Part shown: positions 11,034 to 15,508 of the stretch, in pieces | How positions within the stretch are numbered: the stretch's first letter is position 1 | How the letters are laid out: each line of letters opens with the position of its first letter | From: Candidatus Obscuribacterales bacterium | GTDB lineage: Bacteria; Cyanobacteriota; Vampirovibrionia; Obscuribacterales; Obscuribacteraceae | Assembly: GCA_020050835.1 (NCBI GenBank) | Contig: JAGVKB010000139.1 | Span: 1-64,000, forward strand | Direction: 5' to 3' | Length of the DNA: 64,000 nt | Made by a program: the position numbers and the translations under genes | Notes under the pieces: generated by a model | Seen by the model: the letters and a program-made list of their open reading frames with translations, nothing else | Databases searched by the model: none | What the model was told of the DNA's origin: nothing

Positions 11034-11708
11034 CTAAATTTGAAAGGACTGCCCGCCGAAGCCGGTGAAAATGATCGTCCCGTTCGGCAGCACGTGCACT
11101 TCGGTTACATTTTCGTCGAACTGGCGTTCAACTTTCAAGAAGTCCGGTTTAAGCCAGATCAATCGTTGGTTGGAGCTGCCACGCCAGATATGCGCTTTGG
11201 GATCGGGGCTTTTGAGAGCCTCGACGTAGCGCCCATCGATTAAAAGGTCAATCTCCCGCAAAAACTCTTCACTGGCGTCGGCCGCCTTGGGACCGGTTAA
11301 CTCTTCGTAGGTGAAGCCGCTGTAGCAAACAGTGGTCAGGCCTCTTTCAGCGCGAATGATGCGAGAGACTTGAGCCAAACCGCGGGCCTGCAAAAATGGC
11401 TCGCCACCTGAGAATGTGACACCACGGTGGTTAGGATTAGCCAAAATCTTTTTGGCCAGCTCTTCAGCCGAAATCAACTTTACAACCTTCTGGGTATCCC
11501 ATGTGTCGGGATTCTGGCAGCCCGGGCAAGCATGTCGACAGCCCTGCGTCCAGACTACCGCTCGCGGGCCGCCCGGTCCGTTGGCCAGACTCTCTTCCAC
11601 ATATCCGGTAATGTTGAGCAATCCGGACTCCCGATAACCAGAGACCGGCGAATTGACCTGAAGACGCTTGCGGCTTTGACGATTTCTTTCAGGCTTGCTG
11701 CTTGCCAT
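11034..11708 (-). CDS. NrdG-like radical SAM activating protein in the Ycf46 cluster
   Basis: 224 residues from ATG 11708, chosen because AAGGAG sits 4 nt upstream; the frame is open further. The radical SAM motif is CRHACPGC (Cx3Cx2C), preceded by GPGGPRAVVWTQG, as in NrdG and pyruvate formate-lyase activases. A glycine-rich SAM site (TFSGGEPFLQ) and the ISRIIRAERGLTTVCYSGFTYEEL context also match the NrdG/4Fe-4S single-cluster group. No anaerobic ribonucleotide reductase (NrdD) is nearby. Instead it is last in an operon with DUF2997, Ycf35 and Ycf46, overlapping the DUF2997 gene by 20 bp. Its substrate is therefore probably not NrdD; it may act with the cluster proteins. Confidence 0.88.
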   Translation of the reverse strand: MASSKPERNRQSRKRLQVNSPVSGYRESGLLNITGYVEESLANGPGGPRAVVWTQGCRHACPGCQNPDTWDTQKVVKLISAEELAKKILANPNHRGVTFSGGEPFLQARGLAQVSRIIRAERGLTTVCYSGFTYEELTGPKAADASEEFLREIDLLIDGRYVEALKSPDPKAHIWRGSSNQRLIWLKPDFLKVERQFDENVTEVHVLPNGTIIFTGFGGQSFQI

Positions 11709-11919
11709 AACACTCCTTGTTGACGCGGCGAGTAATCTCGCCAAGTCTCGCTTCCAGCGCGCCTGCTAACTGATCGCACTCTTGCGCGCTTGTCCCGACG
11801 GTCTCCAGTAAGATGTTGCCTCTGCTGTCAACAGCTATATGAATGCTCAACTCCTGAGCAGAATCCTCTATCTCCAATTTGGCCATCGCTTCATCTTTTT
11901 GCTCTTTTTCGCTGGGCAT
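11689..11919 (-). CDS. DUF2997 family protein
   Basis: 76 residues. The pattern LSIHIAVDSRGNILLETVG, a Cys (SAQECDQLAGALEARLG) and a C-terminal NKECYGKQ agree with DUF2997 (beta strand, ISPxGxxxxET-like turn, conserved Cys before an LExxLG helix, terminal Y). The family is small, of unknown function, and in cyanobacteria is commonly found near Ycf35 (from memory). An N-terminal extension of about 20 charged residues is unusual. ATG 11919 has GGAAG 7 nt upstream. Confidence 0.8.
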   Translation of the reverse strand: MPSEKEQKDEAMAKLEIEDSAQELSIHIAVDSRGNILLETVGTSAQECDQLAGALEARLGEITRRVNKECYGKQQA

Positions 11920-12053
11920 TGATTACTTCCTTTCCTGCGCCTTCCTATTTACTTAGAACTCCGACTTGACATAACTGAATGCCGGAGGCCACGGCTGCCA
12001 GCGGCGACATTCGCCGCCACATTAGTGGCCTCCTCCATTTGCTTCCATGATCC

Positions 12054-12431
12054 TTACCGCTGGACAATCAGTTTTACCGTACCGTCCTCTTGGACCGTTT
12101 GCTTCGTCAAGTTGTAACCGAGCCGCTTGATTTCGGCGATGGTCTTGTTGACGGCATACTTCTGATTGATAGAGTCAAGAAGTTGCTGTTGATTGTGCTG
12201 TTTCGCAACTCCCCAAAGATCAGCCACCAGATCAAAGGTTCCATCAGCATTTTTGGTCCAACCCAGATCGTAATGACCGGGTAGTACCGCCACCACGTCT
12301 GCTTGCAGGCGCAGCCCATTATGGCCACGAACCTGCGCGCTGGCTCCTACTGTAAAACCTAAGTCCTGTAAGCTTTTGATCAAGATTTCGGCATCAGTGA
12401 TTTGTGTCTTGATAGTGCTAAAGTGCGACAT
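12054..12431 (-). CDS. ycf35: Ycf35 / DUF1257 family protein
   Basis: 125 residues beginning MSHFSTIKTQITDAEILIKS, the hallmark N-terminus of DUF1257. It then has VRGHNGLRLQADVVAV, YDLGWTKNADGTFDLVADLW and the C-terminal basic strand region; the whole matches Ycf35 of cyanobacteria and algal plastids. Function is unknown. TGGAGG sits 6 nt before ATG 12431. It lies between the Ycf46-like ATPase and DUF2997 in one leftward transcription unit. Confidence 0.9.
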   Translation of the reverse strand: MSHFSTIKTQITDAEILIKSLQDLGFTVGASAQVRGHNGLRLQADVVAVLPGHYDLGWTKNADGTFDLVADLWGVAKQHNQQQLLDSINQKYAVNKTIAEIKRLGYNLTKQTVQEDGTVKLIVQR

Positions 12432-12500
12432 TCGATACCTCCAGATATCTTCAAAGGACTTTGTCGATTTATGCGATTCCAGACATCACCTCCAGTGTTG

Positions 12501-14177
12501 TCAAAGTGAAGATTCCATTCGTAAATACTCGTTTTGATCAATCAAGGTATCCGAGCTGGAAGCCATGCGAGCGCGATCTTGGGCCCAATCTCGCAAGGCG
12601 CTCACCTGTTCGGCCATCGATTGAGAGAGAGGCTTGGTCGCTTCAATCGCCCGGATGATGTCAAATTGAGTGAATTCACGACCGTCATCCGCAAACGCCT
12701 CATACATTGCCGAAATGATGGCCTGTTCTATTTCCGCTCCTGAGAATCCCGACGTTCGGGCAGACAGATCGGCCATTTCGTAAGCGCTGATATCAGATCG
12801 GCGCATCTTTAGATGAATCCGAAAGATCTCCTCTCTCTCTTGTGGATTGGGCAGATCGATAAAGAAAATCTCGTCAAAACGCCCTTTTCGCAAGAACTCG
12901 CCAGGCAGCCTGTCGACGCGATTTGCTGTGGCAATCACAAAAACTGGCGTCCTTTTCTCTTGCATCCAGGTCAAGAATGTTCCAAATACACGGGCAGCTG
13001 TTCCGCCGTCGGCCCCCATCGAACTGGCCATGCCACCGAAAGCCTTATCAACCTCATCAGTGAACAAGAGGCATGGTGCAAGCGACTCGGCTGTTCTTAG
13101 CACCGACCGCAGGTTTTGTTCAGAGGAGCCGACTATGCCGGCAAATATTCGCCCCATATCGAGCTTCAGCAAGGGGAGATTCCAGAGATTGGAGACTGTC
13201 TTGGCCACCAACGACTTGCCGCAGCCAGGAACGCCCAGCAACAAAAGCCCTTTCGGTTGAGGCAATCCATAACTGCGGGCGCTTTCGCTGAAGGAGCCCT
13301 TGCGCTCATCGAGCCATTTCTTGAGATTCTCCAGCCCACCCACTTGGCTTAGCGTGCGCGGTTCTTCCCAGAACTCTAGAATCTGCGATCGGCGAATTAT
13401 CTGTTTCTTCTCGGAAAGGACAATATCAAGCACATCTTGCGAGAGCTTACCGGTCGAAATTAAGGCTCTGGTGTAAACCTTTTCAGCCTCATCGACGGTC
13501 AAACCAAGCGCTGCTCGCAAGAGAGTCTCCTTTTCGTCTCCGGCTACAGGCGGGTGCTCTGAAGTATTCAAACGCTTATCTAGAAAAACTCGATCGAACA
13601 CCTGGCCAATTTCGCTCATCGTCGGCAAGCGAAAATCCAGTACCGCCACGTCCTTTTCCAGCTCGGGCGGAATTCTCAAGACCGGCGACAGGATAATGAT
13701 CGTCTGCTCGAGTCGGCAGGATCGATAATGCGAAACTGCGTCTCTGAGCCACCGCACAACAGCCGGGCTATCTAAGAATGGATGGAGATCCTTAAAAGCG
13801 AAGATCGTCGGATCGCTGCGCTTGGTGGCGAAGTCAAGCGCAGCTTCCGGTGAAATCGTCCCTGGAATCGTTTGTCCCCACAATCCAGCTTGAAAGTTGC
13901 CGGGCATCTGGTTGGACTGAGACGGCGAAGCCGCCGCCCCGAGTTGATTTACCTGTATGGATTGACAAGTATGGCTAGATTGTGGAGCAGAACTGGCCTG
14001 CACTGGACGTTGAAACGGTCTAAAACCTTGAGTAACAGCCCAGACATAAAGCGGCTTGAAAGACTGGTTTTCAGCAATTTGGGCGATTGATGCCAGCGCC
14101 CGGTCTTCTTCGGGAGTAACTAAGTAGATCAGCGGATAGCGAGCTCGAATGAGGATGTCCAATTCCTGCAATTTCAT
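12501..14177 (-). CDS. ycf46: Ycf46-like AAA+ ATPase
   Basis: 558 residues from ATG 14177, matching the family N-terminus (MKLQELDILIRARYPLIYLVTPEEDR). AAGGAGG lies at 14181-14187, next to a tandem ATG 14180; the frame is open to 14342 but the extra residues look non-coding. N-terminal inactive domain with a Gln/Ser/Pro-rich insert (about 60-95), then the AAA+ module: Walker A GVPGCGKS about 315-322, Walker B LLFTDEVD about 370, sensor 1 ATANRVDRLP and arginine finger in RKGRFDE. Ycf46 in cyanobacteria is linked to carbon-supply responses; here no photosynthesis genes are seen. It is the first large gene of the operon. Confidence 0.92.
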   Translation of the reverse strand: MKLQELDILIRARYPLIYLVTPEEDRALASIAQIAENQSFKPLYVWAVTQGFRPFQRPVQASSAPQSSHTCQSIQVNQLGAAASPSQSNQMPGNFQAGLWGQTIPGTISPEAALDFATKRSDPTIFAFKDLHPFLDSPAVVRWLRDAVSHYRSCRLEQTIIILSPVLRIPPELEKDVAVLDFRLPTMSEIGQVFDRVFLDKRLNTSEHPPVAGDEKETLLRAALGLTVDEAEKVYTRALISTGKLSQDVLDIVLSEKKQIIRRSQILEFWEEPRTLSQVGGLENLKKWLDERKGSFSESARSYGLPQPKGLLLLGVPGCGKSLVAKTVSNLWNLPLLKLDMGRIFAGIVGSSEQNLRSVLRTAESLAPCLLFTDEVDKAFGGMASSMGADGGTAARVFGTFLTWMQEKRTPVFVIATANRVDRLPGEFLRKGRFDEIFFIDLPNPQEREEIFRIHLKMRRSDISAYEMADLSARTSGFSGAEIEQAIISAMYEAFADDGREFTQFDIIRAIEATKPLSQSMAEQVSALRDWAQDRARMASSSDTLIDQNEYLRMESSL

Positions 14178-14205
14178 CATCCTCCTTAGCGCCCCACCCC
14201 GGGCC

Positions 14206-14442
14206 TTACGTGCTGCCGACCGGCAGTTTTGAAAACCTCTCCATCTTTGGATCAGGCACAAATTCCAACTTGCAATTAGGACAGACGACCGGGTCTTCCT
14301 CACTGATCTCCAGTAAATATCGTTCGAACATCCTTTCTGCAAGCTCGGACATCTTCATCTCCAGATGAACCGACCGCAGTTTGAGCAATTTGTGAAGTTC
14401 CGGACGTACATACAGTGTGACTTTCGATTTAGATTCGTCCAC
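14206..14442 (-). CDS. Ribbon-helix-helix protein with CxxC tail
   Basis: 78 residues from GTG 14442 with AGAAGGAA about 9 nt upstream. Residues 6-45 read as a ribbon-helix-helix DNA-binding fold (KVTLYVRPELHKLLKLRSVH, then MKMSELAERMFERYLLE). A short C-terminal part has VVCPNCKLEFVPDP, a single CxxC that could bind metal or pair across a dimer. It is the first gene of the Ycf46-Ycf35-DUF2997-radical SAM operon, 28 bp before ycf46. RHH proteins commonly repress their own operons, and TGACGT repeats lie about 70 bp upstream. Autoregulation is inference. Confidence 0.8.
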   Translation of the reverse strand: MDESKSKVTLYVRPELHKLLKLRSVHLEMKMSELAERMFERYLLEISEEDPVVCPNCKLEFVPDPKMERFSKLPVGST

Positions 14443-14512
14443 TTACCTATTCCTTCTGTAATGACTTGAGTTTGCCAATGAGAGAACTCACCTTAATATC
14501 TACCCGGATTTT

Positions 14513-14544
14513 TGACGTTTTAACAGCATGACGTTTTGACGTCA
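14513..14544. promoter_or_regulatory. TGACGT repeat cluster, candidate operator
   Basis: TGACGTTTT occurs at 14513-14521 and again at 14529-14537, and TGACGTCA (a perfect palindrome) at 14537-14544: three TGACGT units starting 16 and 8 bp apart. They lie 70-100 bp upstream of the RHH gene start (minus strand). Ribbon-helix-helix dimers bind such short tandem sites, so this is a candidate operator for the cluster. Confidence 0.5.
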
Positions 14545-14676: not shown

Positions 14677-14779
14677 CTCTGGGGAAAAGTCTGCTGATCT
14701 AGCAACCGCTTGAAGCGTAAGCCGTTCATCTAACATGCGAGAATCTGAAAGTTCAGACAGATGGAGTGAATTTATTGAC

Positions 14780-15508
14780 ATGCCGGAAGCAATGGTGCTT
14801 CGAATTGCACATTTGTACGCTCACTTCCTAAACATCTACGGAGATCGGGGAAACATCTTAGCCTTAAGCAGGCGGACCCAATGGCGTGGAATTGCCGTTG
14901 AGGTAGACCCGATTGGGTTAGGGCAAGCGATCGACTCGGAACGCTACGATCTCTACTTTATCGGCGGTGGTCAAGATAAGCAGCAGCAGATAATCGCCGC
15001 GGACTTAGCGCGGCACGCCACAAGCTTGAGAAAAGCCGTTTCAGAGGGTGCCGTCATCTTGTCAATTTGTGGTGGATATCAGCTGCTCGGTCACTATTAC
15101 AAGCCGCATGAGGGCGACGAGTTGAGGGGCATTTCTCTGATGGACACTCATACAGTGGCCGGGCAGCGCCGGATGATCGGCAATGTGGTTGTACGCCGGC
15201 CCAACGGTTCCACCCTGGTTGGATTTGAAAACCACAGCGGAAAGACATTCTTGGGATCTGCCGTAGAGCCCCTCGGAAAGATTGTTTCAGGCAATGGCAA
15301 CAACGGCGACGATGGTTGTGAAGGAGCAGTTGCCGGAGGCGTTTATGGTACATACTTGCATGGCTCTCTGCTTCCAAAGAACCCAGCGCTTGCCGACGAG
15401 CTTATTACCTTGGCGCTTCGCCGGCGGAACAGCGGAGTTTCGTTAGCACCACTTGACGATGCGATTGAATCGTCGGCCCACAAACGGGCTCTTGCGCTCC
15501 CGGCATAA
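14780..15508 (+). CDS. gatD: GatD-like type 1 glutamine amidotransferase
   Basis: 242 residues from ATG 14780 (GGAG 13 nt upstream); the frame opens at 14735 and ATG 14792 (GGAAG upstream) is also possible. It begins LRIAHLYAHFLNIYGDRGNI, typical of the CobQ/CobB-like GatD group. The nucleophile is C97 in ILSICGGYQLLG and the catalytic His is H194 in GTYLHGSLLP. GatD supplies ammonia to MurT, which amidates the glutamate of lipid II in the cytoplasm. MurT is not adjacent, which is unusual since murT-gatD normally form an operon. An inverted repeat shared with the AbiEi-like gene lies upstream. Confidence 0.85.
   Translation: MPEAMVLRIAHLYAHFLNIYGDRGNILALSRRTQWRGIAVEVDPIGLGQAIDSERYDLYFIGGGQDKQQQIIAADLARHATSLRKAVSEGAVILSICGGYQLLGHYYKPHEGDELRGISLMDTHTVAGQRRMIGNVVVRRPNGSTLVGFENHSGKTFLGSAVEPLGKIVSGNGNNGDDGCEGAVAGGVYGTYLHGSLLPKNPALADELITLALRRRNSGVSLAPLDDAIESSAHKRALALPA

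Follow-up and report, generated by a model that had tools for sequence, protein, structure and literature searches.

A Ycf46-type AAA+ operon with DUF1257, DUF2997 and radical SAM genes in a relative of the phototrophic cyanobacteria, and its possible role in protein remodelling

Five open reading frames were found in a tight leftward cluster (minus strand throughout) in the window, i.e., the whole stretch of 64,000 nucleotides that was analysed; they encode a ribbon-helix-helix (RHH) protein with a CxxC pair at the slr0373 position (14206..14442), a Ycf46-type AAA+ ATPase (12501..14180), a DUF1257 protein of the slr0376 type (12054..12431), a DUF2997 protein (11689..11919) and an NrdG-like single-cluster radical SAM protein (11034..11708). 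Five leftward genes in close order, the last two overlapping, had been described in the first-pass annotation of this DNA, and the open reading frames and family matches confirmed it: the radical SAM gene begins with an ATG within the last part of the DUF2997 gene (overlap 20 bp), and the candidate starts of the latter are the ATG codons at 11919 and 11886. Family matches were as follows: RHH protein – 36 bits (E 5e-9) against NF052617, under the cut-off of 100 that was passed by two phototroph genes (161-172 bits); AAA protein – 99.5 bits (Pfam AAA), Walker A (GVPGCGKS) and Walker B (LLFTDE) intact; DUF1257 protein – 92.1 bits, together with the tree; DUF2997 protein – 19.5 bits against PF11211, short of the gathering cut-off of 24.1, together with alignments and context; radical SAM protein – 112 bits (Fer4_12, 2.6e-32), CxxxCxxC present.

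A candidate operator is a cluster of TGACGT boxes (14513..14544) that lies 71-102 bp ahead of the RHH gene; the RHH protein probably acts through it to regulate the operon. The cluster holds 4 of the 22 TGACGT sites of the window, one pair being the palindrome TGACGTCA, and the same TGACGTCA box was found upstream of the RHH gene of a relative of the same family (G306). TGACGT boxes as a general operator were rejected, since they are essentially absent upstream of the phototroph operons (none in 15 of 16 regions, one box in the other). A CobB/CobQ-like glutamine amidotransferase gene (14735-15508) lies divergently from the RHH gene of the window; a glutamine-amidotransferase-like gene occupies the same spot in G306.

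The host genome (7.0 Mb, 95.7% complete) belongs to the same phylum as the phototrophic cyanobacteria, and probably to their non-photosynthetic sister class. PsaA/PsaB were found neither in it nor in the 15 related genomes tested, with 3/3 phototroph controls positive. The survey covered sampled genomes within this one phylum, plus plasmids and phages, and its counts are those of a sample; many loci were seen as stretches of 3-4 kb, and absences there are weak. Among cyanobacteria, Ycf46, Ycf35 and the slr0373 operon have a wide distribution, and many algal plastids carry Ycf46 and Ycf35; we know of no biochemical role for any of them.

The order RHH-Ycf46-DUF1257 was the same as in the window at all 16 phototroph Ycf46 loci examined; Ycf46 itself was present at ≥60% identity in 16 of the 18 phototroph genomes sampled. 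The AAA protein of the window is 60-62% identical to phototroph Ycf46 and 80% identical to that of G306, and these two form the sister group of phototroph Ycf46 (support 100/100). In G306 the RHH gene again precedes the AAA gene (match E 3e-34), where the contig stops; RHH-AAA is thus kept, and the exact five-gene order was found in no second genome. By gene order and trees, the RHH-AAA-DUF1257 part of the window corresponds to the slr0373-slr0374(Ycf46)-slr0376 operon, with AAA and DUF1257 as orthologs; slr0376 of Synechocystis is taken from gene order as presumably its DUF1257 gene. Recent transfer of the operon from phototrophs is not favoured, because AAA and DUF1257 are sister to, and not nested in, the phototroph clades. 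The earlier idea of a cluster outside cyanobacterial biology was not borne out, the host being of the same phylum and three of the five genes corresponding to a cyanobacterial operon, AAA and DUF1257 as orthologs.

The slr0373-slr0374-slr0376 operon (Singh and Sherman 2002; Jiang et al. 2015; both as cited in PMC7496141 and PMC7283877) is induced in Synechocystis by many stresses (PMC7496141, PMC7283877), and slr0376 is among the most abundant transcripts of this organism (PMC3516471). That Ycf46 serves carbon supply, as reported in Synechocystis, and that the window has retained its copy for some related use of carbon or bicarbonate, is considered very unlikely. In its favour, an slr0374 mutant shows reduced EcaB carbonic anhydrase activity (Jiang et al. 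2015, as cited in PMC7496141), and low inorganic carbon elicits a response of slr0373-0376 (PMC7283877). Against it, iron, sulfur, nitrogen, salt, light and oxidative stress elicit a response of the operon too (PMC7496141), a breadth that fits a general stress role, and AAA genes of the Ycf46 family occur in many non-phototroph genomes, PsaA/PsaB being absent wherever tested.

The DUF1257 gene of the window, which directly follows the AAA gene, had been labelled Ycf35; this was rejected by the tree, in which it groups with the slr0376-position genes (100/100), apart from Ycf35, the DUF1257 protein beside DUF2997 and Fed7, and it is an slr0376-type paralog. Its predicted model was confident (pLDDT 91) and gave no fold match in the PDB; the DUF2997 model was poor (pLDDT 65), so that its structure matches were unusable and were discarded. 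Alignment, an invariant Cys, the LExxLG motif and position support the DUF2997 protein as a divergent member of its family; the Cys is kept in 97/97 distinct sequences collected (phototrophs, modules, phages and the window). The gene that immediately precedes radical SAM is DUF2997, both in the window and at the five other distinct radical-SAM-bearing loci of the Hsp70-type modules described below.

In phototrophs, the ferredoxin gene fed7 follows DUF2997-Ycf35 (cluster g; PMC4284462). At 29/30 such loci (L004-L033) a tandem LGG-type motif was observed at the N-terminus of Fed7; it was also N-terminal in LRV, FGE-like and pentapeptide proteins beside AAA-DUF1257 loci (L218:4999-6105, L219:723-1850, L221:4278-5690). 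The forms seen were SGLEPELGG x2, DAVLGG..AVLGGIEG and PVIGG..PVLGG, and LExxLGG of DUF2997 resembles them. The motif may act as a tag by which DUF1257 or the AAA ring docks.

The radical SAM protein had been described as keeping Cx3Cx2C without an NrdD partner, and the search of the genome agreed: no NrdD was detected (controls positive, assembly completeness as above), and no Gly_radical domain (PF01228) either (controls positive). NrdD was likewise not found in 28 of the 29 related genomes searched, G016 being the sole carrier. That the protein is a true NrdG or another glycyl-radical activase, with an incidental place in the operon, is largely refuted and extremely unlikely; its best NCBIfam and PHROG matches are indeed NrdG (115 and 107 bits), but the former (TIGR02491) is below the equivalog cut-off of 126.1, and the gene repeatedly clusters with AAA and DUF2997. 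With neither NrdD nor a glycyl-radical domain in the host, the protein is not a working NrdG there, NrdG function was rejected, and the alternative of a tight NrdG grouping beside an orphan nrdD does not hold.

Radical SAM orthologs of cyanobacteria were ≤50% identical to the window protein, that of G096 59%; G096 keeps radical SAM and DUF1257, whereas AAA was not matched there under the threshold applied. A genome scan had hinted that the gene is near-universal in phototrophs; this was rejected, sampling having given 6 of 18 genomes. Linkage to the other operon genes in phototrophs was rejected as well: DUF1257, DUF2997 or RHH genes were near none of 80 phototroph radical SAM loci. The phototroph proteins, though unlinked to Ycf46, fall with that of the window in the tree.

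Co-occurrence of DUF1257, DUF2997, Ycf46 and NrdG-like genes, for which the first-pass annotation had proposed a search, was found in many genomes, and the cluster is not confined to one: the gene set occurs in at least five orders across branches with its content kept (RHH-AAA-DUF1257-DUF2997-radical SAM; DUF2997-radical SAM-AAA-DUF1257; AAA-DUF2997-radical SAM-DUF1257; DUF1257-DUF2997-radical SAM-AAA; radical SAM-AAA-DUF1257-DUF2997). Constant content in variable order goes beyond chance and speaks strongly for a functional link.

The host genome carries a second module, in which GrpE-like and Hsp70-like genes are divergent from DUF2997-radical SAM-AAA-DUF1257, in two near-identical copies on short contigs (L037:1155-6101, L038:3396-8342). 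A NusA-like gene was seen beside both copies; L038 also has a conjugation-coupling-protein-like gene (by eye), for which reason the second module is probably mobile. Related Hsp70-type modules were found in G296, G320, G321 and G016. In G315 and G318 the module has no radical SAM gene inside; these genomes carry a module-type radical SAM gene away from the AAA module (L203, L236:4522-7604), followed in G318 by a gene for a large protein that matches beta-propellers weakly.

Plasmids of Pseudanabaena, Geminocystis and Nostoc bear AAA, DUF1257 and DUF2997 without radical SAM; matches to HEC-02 defence candidates, RloB and zeta toxin are interleaved with these genes (L152:7430-9003; L153:4945-10360). 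On three phototroph chromosomes AAA, DUF1257, DUF2997 and GrpE-like genes stand together, an Hsp70-like gene being present in the stretch examined at one of the three loci. A further AAA paralog of the Ycf46 family stands in phototrophs behind genes that by eye resemble yidC and jag (L223, L226, L227, L230), which suggests a link of this paralog to membrane protein biogenesis.

In a class-wide search, a Ycf46-family AAA gene was found in 101/382 genomes, mostly within a single family of small genomes whose members are probably gut bacteria. Among 28 loci of this family, radical SAM was present at 21, DUF2997 at 26 and both beside AAA at 20; between AAA and DUF2997 there is often a divergent DUF1257 (for the one checked, hhalign gave a probability of 92% and E 5.5e-7). 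The trees of AAA and of radical SAM gave the same three-way split: window and phototrophs; small-genome family; Hsp70-type modules.

These loci bear also on a different origin, namely that a mobile conflict or stress-defence module (GrpE, Hsp70, AAA, DUF1257, DUF2997, radical SAM and variable proteins) is at the root and the window operon is its domesticated chromosomal branch. This is judged unlikely. It would account for the HEC-02, zeta-toxin, RloB and DUF4007 genes beside the plasmid versions, for the variable neighbours (WD40, HEAT, LRV, FGE-like, pentapeptide) and for the patchy presence in the order (7/53 genomes by DUF1257, a search that alone understates the module, since small-genome copies are too divergent for the Pfam model). 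Phages add to it: the marine T4-like cyanophages carry an overlapping DUF2997-DUF1257 pair in ~75/80 contigs (L239-L317), in P-SSM2 near gp43 (L319:3802-4381), and the phage family PHROG 8638 matches nearly the whole Ycf46 AAA protein. However, the Ycf46 branch of the window is sister to phototroph Ycf46 as in descent, with operon order kept; the Synechocystis operon answers nutrient, light and carbon stress (PMC7496141, PMC7283877); and the PADLOC matches of the AAA protein cover the AAA domain only, as does its match to the defence family IetAS (NF042959; 84 bits, cut-off of 510 not reached).

The preferred reading is that the Ycf46 stress operon and DUF2997 form one protein-remodelling system, coupled to a 4Fe-4S protein; we give it an even chance. 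The Ycf46 AAA+ ring would act in remodelling a protein, presumably in a physical complex in which DUF1257 and DUF2997 serve it as dedicated small partners or adaptors. A 4Fe-4S protein (radical SAM in the window and related non-phototrophs, Fed7 beside DUF2997-Ycf35 in cyanobacteria) would supply a one-electron step on the target of the ring, the direction of electron flow being presumed. The Cdc48-like AAA+ protein, the small partners and the Hsp70-GrpE pair of the sister branch point to protein remodelling, and the recurrence of a 4Fe-4S protein next to them suggests that this target also undergoes an electron-transfer or radical step. DUF2997 would be the likeliest target, near its invariant Cys; its pairing with the radical SAM gene, together with this Cys, favours it as the substrate. 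Loci without a radical SAM gene close by keep the Cys as well, so that another residue may be the one modified, and the presence of radical SAM in only six of the 18 phototrophs, unlinked, means that it is not required in them. To name DUF2997, or DUF1257, as the radical SAM substrate is a guess.

A fuller version of this reading is doubtful: the radical SAM protein would modify DUF2997 or place a radical on it, the Ycf46 ring with DUF1257 would read or remodel DUF2997, Hsp70 and GrpE would take part in one branch, and cyanobacterial and plastid Ycf46 and Ycf35 would be descendants in which Fed7 has replaced the radical SAM protein. From the sequences, AAA, DUF1257, DUF2997 and radical SAM are probably one machine that does not need photosynthesis. 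The conserved, photosynthesis-independent AAA+ machine with a radical SAM partner proposed in the first-pass annotation therefore largely stands, by its recurrence in genomes without PsaA/PsaB; the Ycf35 label and the placing outside cyanobacterial biology do not.

As far as searched, the RHH-AAA-DUF1257 operon and the Fed7 cluster were already known and the extended set is undescribed. In the openly accessible literature on DUF1257 and DUF2997, the passages found held no tie to AAA or radical SAM, and nothing was found that joins Ycf46 with Hsp70 and defence, or Melainabacteria with radical SAM. The recurring clusters without PsaA/PsaB link AAA, DUF1257, DUF2997 and radical SAM, add an Hsp70-GrpE branch to the Ycf46 family, give Ycf46, Ycf35 and the slr0373 operon concrete partners and a candidate substrate, and argue against photosynthesis as the basic role of the family. 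Should the radical-SAM/DUF2997 reading be true, the system would be of an undescribed class, with cyanobacterial and plastid Ycf46 and Ycf35 as its descendants.

Four known systems are close. NrdG (TIGR02491) is likewise a small Fer4_12 radical SAM protein with CxxxCxxC; the window protein differs by its score under the equivalog cut-off, the want of NrdD and its operon with AAA, DUF1257 and DUF2997. The GAP1-N2 GTPase conflict systems (PMC7159879; neither 'Ycf' nor 'DUF1257' in its text) share with the sister module an Hsp70-GrpE pair in variable loci, but where they have the GTPase, the sister module has a Ycf46-type AAA with DUF1257/DUF2997. The slr0373-slr0374-slr0376 operon has the same RHH-AAA-DUF1257 order with AAA and DUF1257 orthologs; the window, in a host without detected PsaA/PsaB, adds DUF2997 and radical SAM and has a diverged RHH protein. 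Cluster g (DUF2997-ycf35-fed7; PMC4284462) of cyanobacteria also sets DUF2997 and DUF1257 beside a 4Fe-4S protein; unlike the window, it has the ferredoxin Fed7 for this protein, is without AAA and holds DUF1257 as the Ycf35 paralog.
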